Shown here: positions 16,819 to 42,630 of the stretch, in pieces
How positions within the stretch are numbered: the stretch's first letter is position 1
Layout of the letters: each line of letters opens with the position of its first letter
NCBI RefSeq assembly: GCF_944327115.1
Contig: NZ_CALVGS010000113.1
Coordinates: 1-63,602 of the forward strand
From: an uncultured Traorella sp.
Lineage (GTDB): Bacteria > Bacillota_I > Bacilli_A > Erysipelotrichales > Erysipelotrichaceae
Length of the DNA: 63,602 nt
Direction of reading: 5' to 3'
Program-made: the position numbers and the translations under genes
The notes under the pieces: generated by a model
Seen by the model: only the letters and a program-made list of their open reading frames with translations
The model's database searches: none
Told to the model about the DNA's origin: nothing

Positions 16819-16846
16819 GTATAAACCTCCTTTTGTTTCATATAAT
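16819..16846 (+). promoter_or_regulatory. Sigma-E-like promoter of spoIIIAH
   Basis: GTATAAA (16819-16825), a 13-nt spacer and CATATAAT (16839-16846), matching the CATANNNT -10 of sigma-E with an ATA-centred -35. The predicted start is about 16853, just at the Shine-Dalgarno sequence. The same -10 also contains TATAAT, so a sigma-A reading is possible. Confidence 0.5.
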
Positions 16847-16867
16847 GAAATGCAAGGAGGTTTTTTT
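16823..16867 (+). terminator. Terminator-like hairpin whose 3' arm is the spoIIIAH ribosome-binding site
   Basis: AAACCTCCTT (16823-16832) pairs perfectly with AAGGAGGTTT (16854-16863), and TTTCAT (16836-16841) pairs with ATGAAA (16845-16850). Seven T follow the arm, then the ATG at 16869. A ribF transcript would end here or hide AAGGAGG; a transcript started inside the loop would not. Confidence 0.75.
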
Positions 16868-16868
16868 G

Positions 16869-17324
16869 ATGAATAAACAAGCCCTCGCTTTTATCAGCAT
16901 GTTTACATTAGTGCTGATGCTTTCGATTTATTATGTATCGCTGGAAACGATCACTCCTCAAGACAATACGCCTGTCAGTGATGTTACGAGCGTGATGGCT
17001 GTTTTAAATGAGCAGAATCTGGAAAAAAAGAATGCTTTGGTATTGCAGCTGAAGGAACAGCTGGGAAGCAGTGAAACAAGTGAAGAAAAGAAGAAAGAGG
17101 TTCTTTCGAAGATCGAAGCGATCGAGAGTAATAAACAGATAGAAGAAAGGATCGTCGATGCACTGGAACAAAAAGGTATAAAAGGTGTTGTGAATATTGA
17201 AGATGACATCGTAAAGACCCATGTTTTTGAAACAGAGAAAAGCAATGAAAAAGCTGATGAGATCATGCGTTTGATTTATCCGCTGATTACCTCGGATCAG
17301 ACGATCGAATTAGTTTTTAGTTGA
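16869..17324 (+). CDS. spoIIIAH: Stage III sporulation protein AH (SpoIIIAH-like)
   Basis: A 151-residue single-pass membrane protein: one membrane helix at about residues 7-25, a charged coiled coil at about 45-95, and a C-terminal ring-building domain. In spore formers it sits in the mother-cell membrane and locks with forespore SpoIIQ to form the feeding-tube channel during engulfment. The start at 16869 is set by AAGGAGG 8 nt upstream; a longer frame begins upstream without such a signal. The other spoIIIA genes, which normally precede it, are absent; ribF is the neighbour instead. The following gene is asp23 (yqhY), the order found in Bacillus after removal of accB and accC. Confidence 0.85.
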   Translation: MNKQALAFISMFTLVLMLSIYYVSLETITPQDNTPVSDVTSVMAVLNEQNLEKKNALVLQLKEQLGSSETSEEKKKEVLSKIEAIESNKQIEERIVDALEQKGIKGVVNIEDDIVKTHVFETEKSNEKADEIMRLIYPLITSDQTIELVFS

Positions 17325-23206: not shown

Positions 23207-24856
23207 ATGTTTAAAGAAATATACGTTAAAAATTTTGTTCTGATCGATGATCTTCATCTGGAATTTTCTGAAGGACTCTCTGCTTTTACCGGTGAAACTG
23301 GTGCCGGTAAAAGTCTTTTGATCGATGCAATCTCTTTATTGTGCGGAGCAAGAGCCAGCAGTGAATATGTTGCGATAGATAAGGATTATGCACTGATCGA
23401 AGGAGTCTTTACATTGGATGAGAAGCATCCGGCAGCAGTGCTATGTGAGGAGATGGGGATCGAATTGGAAGATGAAATGATCGTCACCAGAAAAATAAAC
23501 AGTGACGGCAAAAGCAGCATCAAGATCAATCAGCGAAGCATTCCTTTATCATCGCTGCGTATGATCATGTCCCAGCTGATCGACATTCATTCCCAGCATG
23601 ATACACAGTATTTATTGAATAAACAATATCATATCACTTTGCTTGATGAATACTGTCACATGGAAAAGAAGCTGGATGAGTGCAAAAAGAAGTATCAGAG
23701 CTATCAGAAGGCATTACATGCTTATGAAGAATTTCAGAATAATGAATTAAGTGATGATCTTGATTTTCTAAGGTATCAGGTCAATGAGATCGATCAGGCA
23801 GAATTGAGTGAAGAGAAGCTTTCTGACATGAATGAAGAGTTGAATCAGTTAAATAACTTTGAAAAGCTGAATGAACATCTTTCAAATGCCTATGAACATC
23901 TGACTAATACCGATAAAACTCTTGAAAATCTTTATGAAGCCATTCATTCGCTTGAATCATTAAAAGAATTTGAATGGGTCGATGAGCTGACTGAGAAGCT
24001 GAATGATTGTTACTATGAAATTGAAGAAGCTTCATCACAGATCAATGATCACCTGCAGCATTTGGATTATGATGAAAATCGTGTCAATGAGATCAATGAA
24101 TATCTTTTTCTCTACAATAACCTTAAACGCAAGCATGGAAATAGCGTAAAAGAAATTCTGGAAAAACGGGATCAGCTCATGCAGCGGATCGAAATGATCG
24201 AAAATCGTGCAGAGATGCTTGAAAAGCTGAAATATCAGGTGGATGAAGCCTATGGCAGCTTTGAAAAGACGGCACTTGAAATTTCTGCGATTCGTAAGGA
24301 AAAGGCGAGATTGCTGGAAAATGAGATCATGAAGGAATGTTGTGATCTCTATCTGGAAAAGGCACGTTTTGAGGTTCGCTTTGAAGCGTGTGATGCGAAT
24401 GTGCGAGGACTTGACAGGGTAGAGTTTTATGTTTCAATGAATCCCGGGGAACCTTTAAAACCTCTTTGTAATGTCGCAAGCGGAGGGGAATTGTCACGCT
24501 TGATGCTTGGACTAAAAACGATCTTTACGGATCTTACCTCGATTGAAACGATCATCTTTGATGAAATCGATACCGGTGTTTCGGGAAAGGTTGCTTTAGC
24601 TATCGGCAGAAAAATGCGTCAGATTGCCCAACGTCATCAGTTATTTGCAATCACCCATCTTTCCAGTGTCGCAGCCTGTGCCCACCATCATTATGTGGTA
24701 GAAAAGACGCAGTCTGCCGATTCGACAAAGACGCATATTCGTGAGCTGGACAAGGAAGAAATCATCGCTTCACTTGCCCTTATGTCTACAAATTCGATGA
24801 GCGAGAGTGCACTTATGGCCGCCAGAGAGCTTTATGAAAGTGCTCAGGTAAAATAA
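23207..24856 (+). CDS. recN: DNA repair protein RecN
   Basis: A 549-residue SMC-like ATPase that gathers DNA ends at double-strand breaks. The Walker A motif GETGAGKS is at 29-36. Two coiled-coil arms cover about 150-370, and the C-terminal signature SGGELSRLMLGLKT and Walker B IIFDEIDTGVSG follow. The protein is intact and of normal length. It precedes spoIVB and spo0A as in Bacillus. Its transcript would run into the spoIVB hairpin 15 bp downstream. Confidence 0.96.
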   Translation: MFKEIYVKNFVLIDDLHLEFSEGLSAFTGETGAGKSLLIDAISLLCGARASSEYVAIDKDYALIEGVFTLDEKHPAAVLCEEMGIELEDEMIVTRKINSDGKSSIKINQRSIPLSSLRMIMSQLIDIHSQHDTQYLLNKQYHITLLDEYCHMEKKLDECKKKYQSYQKALHAYEEFQNNELSDDLDFLRYQVNEIDQAELSEEKLSDMNEELNQLNNFEKLNEHLSNAYEHLTNTDKTLENLYEAIHSLESLKEFEWVDELTEKLNDCYYEIEEASSQINDHLQHLDYDENRVNEINEYLFLYNNLKRKHGNSVKEILEKRDQLMQRIEMIENRAEMLEKLKYQVDEAYGSFEKTALEISAIRKEKARLLENEIMKECCDLYLEKARFEVRFEACDANVRGLDRVEFYVSMNPGEPLKPLCNVASGGELSRLMLGLKTIFTDLTSIETIIFDEIDTGVSGKVALAIGRKMRQIAQRHQLFAITHLSSVAACAHHHYVVEKTQSADSTKTHIRELDKEEIIASLALMSTNSMSESALMAARELYESAQVK

Positions 24857-24857
24857 A

Positions 24858-24887
24858 GAATAAAGATATGACCTCCCATCCATACTA
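24858..24887 (+). promoter_or_regulatory. Sigma-G (or sigma-F) type promoter of spoIVB
   Basis: GAATA (24858-24862), an 18-nt spacer and CATACTA (24881-24887) match the sigma-G consensus of a gHATR -35 and a CATNHTA -10. The predicted start near 24894 leaves a leader of about 12 nt holding only the ribosome-binding site. In Bacillus spoIVB is a forespore gene, which agrees. Confidence 0.65.
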
Positions 24888-24905
24888 GATGTGGGAGGTT
24901 TTTAT
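24871..24905 (+). terminator. Terminator-like hairpin whose 3' arm is the spoIVB ribosome-binding site
   Basis: ACCTCCCA (24871-24878) pairs with TGGGAGGT (24892-24899), followed by TTTTTA and the ATG at 24906. The sigma-G -10 lies in the loop. It can serve as the recN terminator and hides GGGAGG in read-through RNA. Confidence 0.75.
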
Positions 24906-25880
24906 ATGAAAAGAAAATATGTCATATTTCTACTTCTCCTAGGACTTTTTACGGTTTCCGTTCAGTCCAGAGAAGTTTATCTAGGCGGTGAAAGCATTGG
25001 CATTCAGCTGCAATATGAAGGTGTGCTGATTACTGCCACTTATCAGGTGGATACCAAAGATTTTTCGTATAATCCTTCACAGAGTGATATTCAAAGCGGT
25101 GATACGCTCAAGGAGATTGATGGCAGAAAGATCGACACCTTGGAACAGCTCAATGAAATTCTATTACAAAAAAAGAATCAGACAGTTGTATGTACCTTAA
25201 AAAGAAAAAATGAAATCATTTACCGTAATCTCAAGGTCATCGAAGATCATGGCAAGATCAAAACCGGCTTATTCGTAAAAGATGAGATCATGGGCATAGG
25301 TACCTTGACTTATATCGATCCTGCAAATTCTACCTATGGATCCTTAGGTCATGAAATCATCGATCAGGACACTAAACAAACCATTCGCTTTGATCAGGGA
25401 ATCCTTTATACATCAAGCGTGAAAGATATACAAAAAGCCCAAATATCACGTGTTGGCGAAAAACAGGCCTTGATTCATTTTGATCATTCTATCGGTAATA
25501 TTTTAAAGATCAGTCGCTTTGGTGTATTTGGAAACAGTTATGAACCTTTGTCAGAGCGTTTGATCGAAACAGCTTTACAGGAAGAGATCAATATAGGAAA
25601 AGCAACAATGTATACCGTATTAAATGATGAAAAAGTAGAAGCGATCGAAATTGAGATCATAAAAAAATATAAGCAGAGCGAAGCAGATATCAAAAGCTTT
25701 GAATTTGTGATCATTGATGCGCAAATATTAGAAAAAACAGGCGGTATCATACAGGGAATGAGCGGATCACCAATCGTACAAAATGAAAAGCTGATCGGAG
25801 CGGTCACGCATGTATCTGCCCAAAATCCTGCAACCGGCTTTGGTGTTTATATCGAATGGATGCTGGAAGAAAGCGACTAA
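24906..25880 (+). CDS. spoIVB: SpoIVB-type serine peptidase (S55)
   Basis: A 324-residue exported protease. An N-terminal hydrophobic segment (about 4-20) is followed by a PDZ domain (about 55-115) and an S55 peptidase domain with the histidine in GSLGHE (H149) and the serine in GMSGSPI (S288). In Bacillus it is secreted from the forespore and cuts SpoIVFA to switch on sigma-K in the mother cell. It is shorter than the 425-residue Bacillus protein. Start chosen from GGGAGG and the ATG at 24906. It lies between recN and spo0A in the conserved order. Confidence 0.92.
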   Translation: MKRKYVIFLLLLGLFTVSVQSREVYLGGESIGIQLQYEGVLITATYQVDTKDFSYNPSQSDIQSGDTLKEIDGRKIDTLEQLNEILLQKKNQTVVCTLKRKNEIIYRNLKVIEDHGKIKTGLFVKDEIMGIGTLTYIDPANSTYGSLGHEIIDQDTKQTIRFDQGILYTSSVKDIQKAQISRVGEKQALIHFDHSIGNILKISRFGVFGNSYEPLSERLIETALQEEINIGKATMYTVLNDEKVEAIEIEIIKKYKQSEADIKSFEFVIIDAQILEKTGGIIQGMSGSPIVQNEKLIGAVTHVSAQNPATGFGVYIEWMLEESD

Positions 25881-25882
25881 AA

Positions 25883-25906
25883 CCGACAATATGTCGTTTT
25901 TTTTCC
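25883..25906 (+). terminator. Terminator of spoIVB
   Basis: CGACA/TGTCG stem with an ATA loop followed by eight T. Confidence 0.7.
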
Positions 25907-26026: not shown

Positions 26027-26833
26027 ATGACCAATAAAATGAGTGTTTATGTCGTAGATGATAATAACGAAGGCTGTAATCGCATGAAGGATGAATTAAG
26101 AAAATCAGATCGGTTTGAAGTGGTAGGAAGCGCAAGCAACGGGGAGCAGTGCTTAAAAGAACTTACCAATCGCAGCATCGATTTTCTTATTTTAGATCTG
26201 ATCATGCCTATTAAAGATGGCTTTCAGGTACTTAGTGAATTAAAGCAGCATCGTATCAACATCAAGCATATCATCGCCACAACTCCTCTTATCAATGACG
26301 CTATGATCGTTGATCTTCAGAAATACTCAATTGCCTATCTGCTGATGAAGCCTTTTGAGGTAAAACAGATTCTTAACAAAATGATCGCTATAAGTGGGGT
26401 TGAAACAAATGGTAATGTCATATCATTAAATGTTTCTGAGCGCGATAAGCTTTTGCATCTTGAATTAGAGAAGGATGTAACGGAAATTCTGCATGAAATC
26501 GGTATTCCGGCACACATCAAGGGGTATCTCTATTTACGGACCGCTATTCTTGAAACTTATGAAAATATTGACTTTCTGGGACAGATCACAAAGGTTTTAT
26601 ATCCGGAAATAGCACGTCTTTATGCAACGACATCTTCACGTGTCGAAAGAGCCATCCGTCATGCGATCGAGGTTGCATGGAACAGGGGAAATGTCGATGC
26701 CATTGACGAGATCTTCGGATATACGATTTCCGCAAGCAAGGCCAAGCCGACAAATTCAGAATTTATTGCGATGATATCCGATAAATTACGTTTGGACAAT
26801 AAAGTAAAAAATAGCGACAGATATTATCGTTAA
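26027..26833 (+). CDS. spo0A: Master sporulation response regulator Spo0A
   Basis: A 268-residue response regulator. The receiver domain has D11-D12, the phosphoacceptor D57 in LDLIMP, and the conserved lysine in MKPFE. The C-terminal DNA-binding domain carries the Spo0A recognition-helix region [16 protein letters not shown]. Phosphorylated Spo0A starts sporulation and represses growth-phase genes. ATAGGAGG precedes the ATG. A 0A box and a candidate cre site lie upstream, and a terminator follows. Confidence 0.97.
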
Positions 26834-34657: not shown

Positions 34658-36133
34658 TTAAAGAACGATTGCGATAACATTGCCTTTTCCTTTATTTACC
34701 AGCTTTGTCAAAATATCCTGCAAACGGACGCGTGCGGTTTCCGGAATCATGGATAATTTTACATTCAGACCATCTTTGATCAGATCAGAAAGCTTACGCC
34801 CAAAAATATCTGATTCCCAGATTGTCTGTGAATTTTCACTGTCCCTTGTCAGATATCGAATCAATTCTTCGCTTTGCTGTTTGGAGCCTATGATCGGTTC
34901 AAAGCTGCTTTCGACATCTACCTTGATCATATGGATGCTTGGTGCAACAGCCTTCAGCTTGACGCCATAGCGGCTTCCCTGCTTGATGATTTCCGGCTGT
35001 GATAGCTCGATCTCATCCAGTGATGCACTTGCAAAGCCATAACCTGTAAGCTTCACCATCTTTAATGCATTGGAGATAGCATCATATTCCTTTTTAGCTT
35101 TTGAAAAATCCTGCATCAAAGAAAGCAATGAAGCTTTATCTACGACATCGACATGGATGATTTCCTTCAGGATTTGGCTGTATAAGCCTTTTTGTACTTG
35201 GATTTCGACATTGACATTACCGGTTCCGGGATCAATGCTGGCAAGATGCGATGACTCGATGTATTCATTTTCATTTAAAGCGAGGGTCAATGTTTCGACT
35301 TCCTTTAATTTTTCAATGATCGACATTCCCTGTTGGATCGAATCATTGATCGTCTTTTTCAGCCAGTGGCTCTTATCCAGTACATCGACCCATGTCGGAA
35401 GCTGAATGCTAATTTGAGCGACCGGAAATTCATACAAGGCTTCCTTAAGCAGCTGTAAGATATCGCTTTCCTCTAAACGGTTGACAGCGAGAGCTAAAAC
35501 AGGAGCATGAACTTTTTCCTTTAAACGGGCAACGACATTTTCACATTGCGCAGAGGCAGGATTTTTTGAATTAACGATGATGATAAATGGTTTTCCGATC
35601 TGATCCAATTCTTCAATAACTTCCATTTCTGCCTGTAAATAGGCTTCTCTTGGAATATCGGTAATCGAACCGTCGCTTGTGATGACGATACCGATCGTTG
35701 AATGATCTTGAATGACCTTCTGGGTCCCTACCTTTGCGGCCTCATCAAATGGAATCGCATCATCAAACCATGGTGTACGAACCATTCTTATACCGTTTTC
35801 ATCTTTATAGCCCTTTGCTTCTTCAATCACGTAACCCACACAGTCAACCAGACGTACATTGACCTTAAAACCATCTTCAAATTCAATTTGTGCTGCACTA
35901 TTTGGCACAAATTTAGGTTCAGCAGTAAGGATCGTTCTTCCTTCGCCCGATTGTGGCAATTCATCCGTCATGCGGGCTTTTTCATATTCATCATGTACGT
36001 ATGGAAGGACTGCCTTTTCCATAAATTTTTTAATAAAAGTACTTTTACCGACACGCACAGGCCCTACGATTCCTAAATATATGTCACCGCCGCACCTTTG
36101 TGCAATATTTTTATAGACTTCCAGTGTATTCAT
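34658..36133 (-). CDS. spoIVA: Stage IV sporulation protein A (coat basement ATPase)
   Basis: A 491-residue ATPase that polymerises around the forespore and anchors the spore coat. The Walker A motif GPVRVGKSTF is near residue 25, with the DCVGY Walker B/switch region and the ITSDGSITDIPR segment conserved in the family. The C-terminal domain (last 90 residues) ends in hydrophobic IAIVL. The start at 36133 has AGGAGG 6 nt upstream; a frame extending six codons further has none. The sigma-E promoter lies between gpsA and spoIVA. The order spoIVA-hup matches Bacillus, as does gpsA-der upstream. Confidence 0.95.
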   Translation of the reverse strand: MNTLEVYKNIAQRCGGDIYLGIVGPVRVGKSTFIKKFMEKAVLPYVHDEYEKARMTDELPQSGEGRTILTAEPKFVPNSAAQIEFEDGFKVNVRLVDCVGYVIEEAKGYKDENGIRMVRTPWFDDAIPFDEAAKVGTQKVIQDHSTIGIVITSDGSITDIPREAYLQAEMEVIEELDQIGKPFIIIVNSKNPASAQCENVVARLKEKVHAPVLALAVNRLEESDILQLLKEALYEFPVAQISIQLPTWVDVLDKSHWLKKTINDSIQQGMSIIEKLKEVETLTLALNENEYIESSHLASIDPGTGNVNVEIQVQKGLYSQILKEIIHVDVVDKASLLSLMQDFSKAKKEYDAISNALKMVKLTGYGFASASLDEIELSQPEIIKQGSRYGVKLKAVAPSIHMIKVDVESSFEPIIGSKQQSEELIRYLTRDSENSQTIWESDIFGRKLSDLIKDGLNVKLSMIPETARVRLQDILTKLVNKGKGNVIAIVL

Positions 36134-36154
36134 TTCAATCCTCCTAGTCATTAA

Positions 36155-36183
36155 ACCTTATGAGAATCGGTAGTCCTTTATTA
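36155..36183 (-). promoter_or_regulatory. Sigma-E type promoter of spoIVA
   Basis: On the minus strand TAATAAA (36177-36183), a 14-nt spacer and CATAAGGT (36155-36162). Both elements match the sigma-E consensus kmATAww and CATANNNT. Confidence 0.65.
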
Positions 36184-36186
36184 CAA

Positions 36187-36211
36187 TAAAAAGCAGATTA
36201 CTCTGCTTTTA
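36187..36211 (-). terminator. Terminator of the cmk-der-gpsA run
   Basis: On the minus strand AAAAGCAGA/TCTGCTTTT with a 4-nt loop and T-run, overlapping the gpsA stop. The spoIVA -35 begins just past it. Confidence 0.75.
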
Positions 36212-42254: not shown

Positions 42255-42630
42255 AAACATATTCCACTGATGCAATGCACAAGTAAACCTCATCATATTG
42301 AATGATCATGCGGAATTCTGCCTTACCGCTAAAATCAAGCGTGCATTGGCTTCCTTCATAAGATGCACTTACGGTAATATCCTTTTCTTCAAAGACAAAG
42401 TCATCGCAATTTTGTTCATAAAAGTCATTTTTGATACGTCGAAGCACTTTTATTTTAACGACTTCAAGATCCGTATCTATATTTTTCAAGGTCGTAAGAT
42501 GAGCAAGCTGTAAGGAAAAGTAAATAGCTCCGGCAGCCAGCAAATGAAAAAGTCCAAGGGCCAGTATCAATACATTCCCTTTATCAGTTGCATCCAAGAA
42601 AGCGTTCTTTTCTCTTTGCGTCTTTTTCAT
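42244..42630 (-). CDS. comGG: ComGG-like competence pseudopilus protein
   Basis: A 128-residue protein with one N-terminal membrane helix (GNVLILALGLFHLLAAGAIYF, about 18-38) and a small extracellular beta-rich tail with two cysteines. Position as last pseudopilin-type gene of the comG operon matches ComGG, although the N-terminal prepilin motif is weak, as is usual for ComGG. It overlaps comGF by 47 bp. Assignment rests mostly on position and size. Confidence 0.6.
   Translation of the reverse strand: MKKTQREKNAFLDATDKGNVLILALGLFHLLAAGAIYFSLQLAHLTTLKNIDTDLEVVKIKVLRRIKNDFYEQNCDDFVFEEKDITVSASYEGSQCTLDFSGKAEFRMIIQYDEVYLCIASVEYVYER

Follow-up and report, generated by a model that had tools for sequence, protein, structure and literature searches.

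A predicted forespore promoter within a ribosome-binding-site hairpin at Traorella spoIVB, and related spoIVB leaders across Erysipelotrichales

The recN-spoIVB junction

The window, the 63,602-nt stretch of DNA analysed here, is one contig (C113) of a Traorella genome of 2.23 Mb and carries recN, spoIVB and spo0A in the usual gene order (Table 1). NCBIfam models recognise all three products, with SpoIVB scoring slightly below its cut-off, and the SpoIVB of T. massiliensis, the closest named relative, is 90% identical to that of the window. The recN and spoIVB genes are co-directional and separated by 49 nt. A simple terminator scan, which misses the hairpin described below because of its loop limit of 8 nt, found no further terminator-like hairpin with loops ≤8 nt in this gap.

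Table 1. Positions of the genes and leader features in the window.
Feature	Position	Strand	Basis or comment
spoIIIAH leader layout	16823..16871	+	arms AAACCTCCTT/AAGGAGGTTT; loop with sigma-E type -10 CATATAAT (16839-16846); T7 and ATG 16869 follow; z -3.5, p 0.010
recN	23207..24856	+	TIGR00634, E 3e-149; gene 5´ of spoIVB
-35 element GAATA, forespore (sigma-G type) promoter	24858..24862	+	sequence
5´ arm (GACCTCCCAT), anti-Shine-Dalgarno	24870..24879	+	fold; 5´ of predicted transcript start; complementarity kept in Traorella relatives
Core complementary arms ACCTCCCA and TGGGAGGT	24871-24878 and 24892-24899	+	sequence
-10 element CATACTA, entirely within hairpin loop	24881..24887	+	sequence
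3´ arm (GTGGGAGGTT), holding Shine-Dalgarno GGAGG (24894-24898)	24891..24900	+	fold
Predicted transcript start	about 24894	+	from -10 position, ~7 nt 3´ of the -10, ±1-2
T5 run after the stem, terminator-like U-tract within the SD-ATG spacer	24899..24903	+	sequence
spoIVB start codon ATG	24906-24908	+	sequence
spoIVB coding sequence	24906..25880	+	TIGR02860, E 2e-89, 300.1 bits (cut-off 305.25)
Terminator-like hairpin and T8, 3´ of spoIVB	25884..25896	+	terminator scan
spo0A	26027-26833		

The sigma-G consensus is GHATR-N17/18-CATNHTA. Between recN and spoIVB, GAATA-N18-CATACTA (24858-24887) fits this consensus 5´ of a sporulation gene and occurs once in the window, where 0.017 occurrences are expected; a sigma-G-like match at 42264(-) was dropped, as it lies inside a reading frame. 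The whole -10 is contained in the 11-nt loop of a hairpin (24870-24900) in which 24870-24879 forms 10 pairs with 24891-24900, two of them G-U, and whose 3´ arm holds the Shine-Dalgarno (SD) sequence, 7 nt from the ATG. The minimum free energy of this hairpin (-14.8 kcal/mol) was equalled by 1 of 200 shuffles, and a pattern search for ACCTCCCA-N5..25-TGGGAGGT returned this single occurrence in the 2.23-Mb genome. An Rfam scan gave no match above the gathering score, only a chance SNORD31 match far below the cut-off. The first-pass annotation had described the promoter, the arms, the T5 run and the ATG, and each lies exactly where it was placed. The hairpin with the -10 in its loop and the ribosome-binding site (RBS) in its 3´ arm likewise stands, though slightly larger than described at 10 pairs, and the promoter is a consensus sigma-G promoter by sequence, which does not separate sigma-G alone from dual sigma-F/sigma-G recognition.

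The predicted start of the internal promoter falls 3´ of the 5´ arm, and the forespore spoIVB leader would thus be ~12 nt long, begin with GGAGG and lack the 5´ arm. To quantify such arrangements we defined coupling as the extra folding energy gained on joining the segments upstream and downstream of the predicted start, compared with 200 dinucleotide shuffles of the upstream segment. For the window leader alone, coupling reached p 0.060 or 0.025 depending on the split position, and an 8-base match turned up in 1.8% of shuffled upstream segments and in 0.9% of segments drawn at random from the window. Taken by itself, the window hairpin is only mildly improbable (p 0.02-0.06), and it is the relatives that carry the case.

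Comparison of spoIVB leaders across Erysipelotrichales

Loss of arm complementarity in close relatives had been named beforehand as a result that would count against the arrangement; instead, complementarity is kept in all four Traorella spoIVB leaders, with arms shifted by 4 nt and loops of different sizes. In the T. massiliensis leader (CCCCCTCCCATACTATATGTGGGAGG) the arm lies 4 nt nearer the -10 and overlaps its first bases, in L004 (GCCTCCTATACTAATATAGGAGGT) a C-G pair of the window is replaced by T-A and the loop is reduced to 4 nt, and in L021 the leader (GCCTCCATACTATCAGTGGGAGG) is followed by T7. The arms co-vary, CCTCCC/GGGAGG becoming CCTCCT/AGGAGG, and move relative to the -10, while the distance from the -10 to the start codon is 24-25 nt in all four.

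We extended the search, as the first-pass annotation had proposed, to 68 spoIVB leaders from two Erysipelotrichales families, in which recN and the start codon were located and promoters predicted (four automatic -10 calls were changed on visual inspection). Coupling at p≤0.05 was found in 51 of the 68 leaders (22/36 in the home family, 29/32 in the second family), in shuffle tests that ignore shared ancestry, which was handled by collapsing to genera only. Throughout the home family the CATACTA-type -10 holds a fixed distance 5´ of the SD; an xATACTA/AAACTA-type -10 is nearly always 4-10 nt 5´ of the SD, giving predicted leaders of ~11-18 nt. Many of these relatives have weak -35 boxes, so that their promoters were called from the -10 and where it lies, and several have a sigma-F-like GG before the -10. 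The helices vary between genera in sequence and position, being ATCAGCCTCC/GGAGGCTGAT in g25 (L023) and ACACCTCC/GGAGGTGT in one g51 species (L032) and including the AUG in some other genera; as in the window, the segment that pairs lies for the most part 5´ of the predicted start.

In the second family, a GAATA/GCATA/GTATA-N17/18-CAAACTA/CAAAATA promoter overlaps the end of recN, and a 14-bp outer helix joins the -35/-10 interval to the SD end and start codon, enclosing an inner 6-bp hairpin. Across 28 distinct sequences of this outer helix, 95% of pair cells are standard, and there are 41 both-side changes compared with 15.4 in shuffles (0/500) and ≤8 with partners slid. A covarying TGTAAC/GTTACA-type hairpin, which may represent a stem in the RNA or an operator in the DNA, is also present in this family (L054-L085), directly 5´ of the SD and overlapping the predicted transcript start.

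Consistent with these helices, the read-through RNA is predicted to fold with the SD and/or AUG paired. Among leaders without a separate terminator, the median predicted cost to open the region from SD to start was 14.5 kcal/mol in read-through RNA versus 4.6 kcal/mol in RNA from the predicted start; the values for the window leader were 13.4 and 1.8 kcal/mol. In the predicted short RNA the SD may pair weakly with codons (fold -3.9 kcal/mol), and it is mostly paired once more coding sequence is included in the fold.

Coupling was absent wherever a separate intrinsic terminator lies between recN and the promoter (0/9 leaders), compared with 51/59 leaders lacking one, and leaders with such a terminator make up most of the uncoupled set. 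When the terminator hairpin had to finish 30 nt ahead of the start, 7 such leaders were counted, and relaxing this to upstream of the -10 gave the 9; one more terminator (AGGCACGGTCAAACTGACCGTGC-TTTTT, L051) was added by eye, and the conclusion was the same at every filter step. All 10 of these leaders are without pairing, and by genus, with L051 included, 0/6 with a separate terminator were coupled versus 21/25 without (Fisher p 2.9e-4).

Control leaders were near chance or unpaired: 2/23 spo0A leaders of the same loci were coupled (mean z -0.53), as were 2/22 spoIVB leaders of other Bacilli orders (mean z -0.17), where recN gaps are longer or unknown, and Clostridium spoIVB leaders showed no SD pairing. 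Coupling was likewise seen at 6 of 47 usable gene starts in the window, three of the six being spoIVB, spoIIIAH and spoIVA. Because these controls are near chance, the pairing is lineage-specific and not general to spoIVB. The remaining strongly coupled window starts (aspS 12418, -5041 and -33425) look like coding-region or chance structure. The spoIVB leader of a far relative, a Clostridiales MAG (L019), contains the SD within an 18-bp hairpin, perhaps of independent origin.

A proposed role for the spoIVB leader

Given the layout, its conservation, the covariation and the modelled difference in accessibility, we consider it probable that the spoIVB leader serves as an RNA insulator that carries its own developmental override. 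Transcripts reading through from recN, the presumed source, would carry both arms, fold and bury the spoIVB SD, together with the start codon in other lineages, and the U-tract after the stem may also terminate part of this read-through. Forespore RNA polymerase with sigma-G (or sigma-F/G) would initiate from the promoter in the loop, roughly at the SD itself; the resulting RNA would lack the 5´ arm, and therefore could not fold and would be translated. The sigma factor's identity, the start site, read-through from recN and the translational effect are all inferred here. The element common to all lineages is that the SD and/or AUG is predicted to pair with RNA present only if transcription began upstream, and the most economical reading is a translational insulator selected by the promoter, silent in recN read-through and active from the forespore start. 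Exchange between hairpin and terminator fits this model, since the RBS hairpin becomes superfluous once a plain terminator is in place. Counting against it, the predicted 12-nt leader puts the SD at the extreme 5´ end.

The arrangement also resembles an intrinsic terminator overlapping the SD of the next gene, in having a stem and then a T-run where the recN transcript would end, and the hairpin might be mainly such a terminator, the overlap of 3´ arm and SD being thrift in a 49-nt gap and the occlusion incidental. A G+C-rich stem is indeed followed by T5 in the window, as by the T7 in L021 and by T-runs in several spoIIIAH leaders, and the lack of the hairpin in leaders with a separate terminator suggests that the two are interchangeable. 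We nevertheless judge this account rather unlikely: most other genera and the entire second family have no U-tract right after the helix, and in these the SD or AUG is enclosed in a helix that often has large internal loops, so that occlusion and not the U-tract is common to all. The window stem itself has a loop of 11-13 nt and the tail TTTTTATAT, and unlike an ordinary overlapping terminator it holds a promoter -10 in its loop. Given the T-run, partial termination besides occlusion is likely in Traorella and a few others, though the sequence of the window leader cannot tell which of the two dominates.

If the true start instead lay upstream of the 5´ arm, the helix could also, or only, dampen translation of the forespore transcript itself, much as the B. 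subtilis sigG leader has a small RBS hairpin of that kind. This seems improbable, given that the sole consensus promoter sets the start 3´ of the arm and that the relatives mostly repeat this placement. A chance match between a C-rich promoter spacer and the SD is the least credible explanation, and we give it almost no weight; for the window alone an 8-base match does arise in 1-2% of controls, but order-wide coupling with different sequences, covariation and the negative controls contradict it. The persistence of the layout with changed sequence within the genus, the covariation and coupling across the order, and the absence of the layout where a separate terminator is present support the earlier argument for selection over chance.

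The principle of a promoter-selected insulator is already known. Masuda 1988 and Sun 1991 are said to be the original references for the B. subtilis sigG (spoIIIG) leader hairpin. In read-through RNA from spoIIG that large hairpin prevents translation, and transcripts begun at the sigG promoter are unable to form it (PMC5942855); there, as proposed here, a sporulation gene behind another operon has its RBS hidden in read-through RNA only. However, sigG is a different gene with a 20+ bp hairpin, and its transcript has a longer leader containing a separate RBS hairpin, whereas at spoIVB the -10 is in the loop, transcription would start at the SD, and the arrangement recurs at several genes and across an order. 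For phage T4 gene e (lysozyme) and soc, long early transcripts hide the RBS and late promoters are situated within the stretch encoding the 5´ strand, giving late RNA that lacks this strand and is translated, with a ~100-fold effect for e (PMC3014915). These are phage late promoters, not sporulation sigma factors, and the cited description mentions no exchange with terminators. For spoIVB of B. subtilis, a cited title speaks of dual control. Our literature search, with most subscription journals outside its coverage, found no paper on promoter-in-hairpin insulation for spoIVB, spoIIIAH, spoVAC or Erysipelotrichales; what is new is the order-wide use on spoIVB and other spore genes, the -10 in the loop and the exchange with ordinary terminators.

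In B. subtilis, the sigma-K checkpoint is triggered by SpoIVB as the signal from the forespore, and stray SpoIVB production is therefore likely to matter. The leaders suggest a compact, promoter-dependent and protein-free means of silencing developmental genes individually inside vegetative operons. They provide dozens of natural replicates, among them cases in which the hairpin was lost and a terminator took its place, within an order of gut spore-forming bacteria that has received little study. RNA-seq coverage over such genes need not imply translation.

Related layouts at other sporulation genes

The parallel drawn by the first-pass annotation with spoIIIAH, under a different sigma factor, was upheld in the window and in most other genera examined: the window gene, assigned from synteny and a weak Pfam match (E 0.006), has a sigma-E -10 in the corresponding loop (Table 1), and across 17 genera of the family 10 spoIIIAH leaders were coupled at p≤0.05. 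Among the clearly uncoupled leaders, L126 and L132 have their own terminators. In three Traorella species, spoVAC, directly 3´ of the sigF gene, is preceded by a hairpin that hides the SD and has a sigma-G-like CATACTA in its loop, with arms that differ between species (L097/L137 (G000:C40), L138, L140). In the window's own genome, CCTCC-N3..30-GGAGG-N4..10-ATG gave 11 matches versus 1 for the reversed pattern, a pattern-search count that denotes enrichment and not a census, with about half of the matches preceding short or unidentified frames.

Whether Erysipelotrichales insulate many sporulation genes within vegetative or earlier-stage clusters by a common architecture, namely a compartment-specific promoter within the loop of a terminator or of a hairpin that hides the RBS, evolutionarily interchangeable with a plain terminator, we regard as evenly balanced; it would take in spoIVB, spoIIIAH and spoVAC, and possibly spoIVA, a PdaA-like deacetylase and a lipoprotein.

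The spoIVA gene (PF09547; window 36133-36190, minus strand) has its own upstream terminator, and a sigma-E-like -10 (CATAAGGT) lies at the loop start of an 8-pair helix (CGATTCTC/GAGGATTG) covering the SD. Upstream of a gene for a PdaA-like polysaccharide deacetylase with Ig-like domains (L113, G000:C110), which sits downstream of an apparent mscL gene, CATAAGAT is found in a CCTCCCC/GGGGAGG loop. Finally, at a gene for a 145-146 aa lipoprotein a perfect hairpin (CCTCCCATAG/CTATGGGAGG) contains both GAATA-N17-CATAGTA and the SD, a leader conserved in both species in which it was seen (L107, G000:C54; L086, T. massiliensis).
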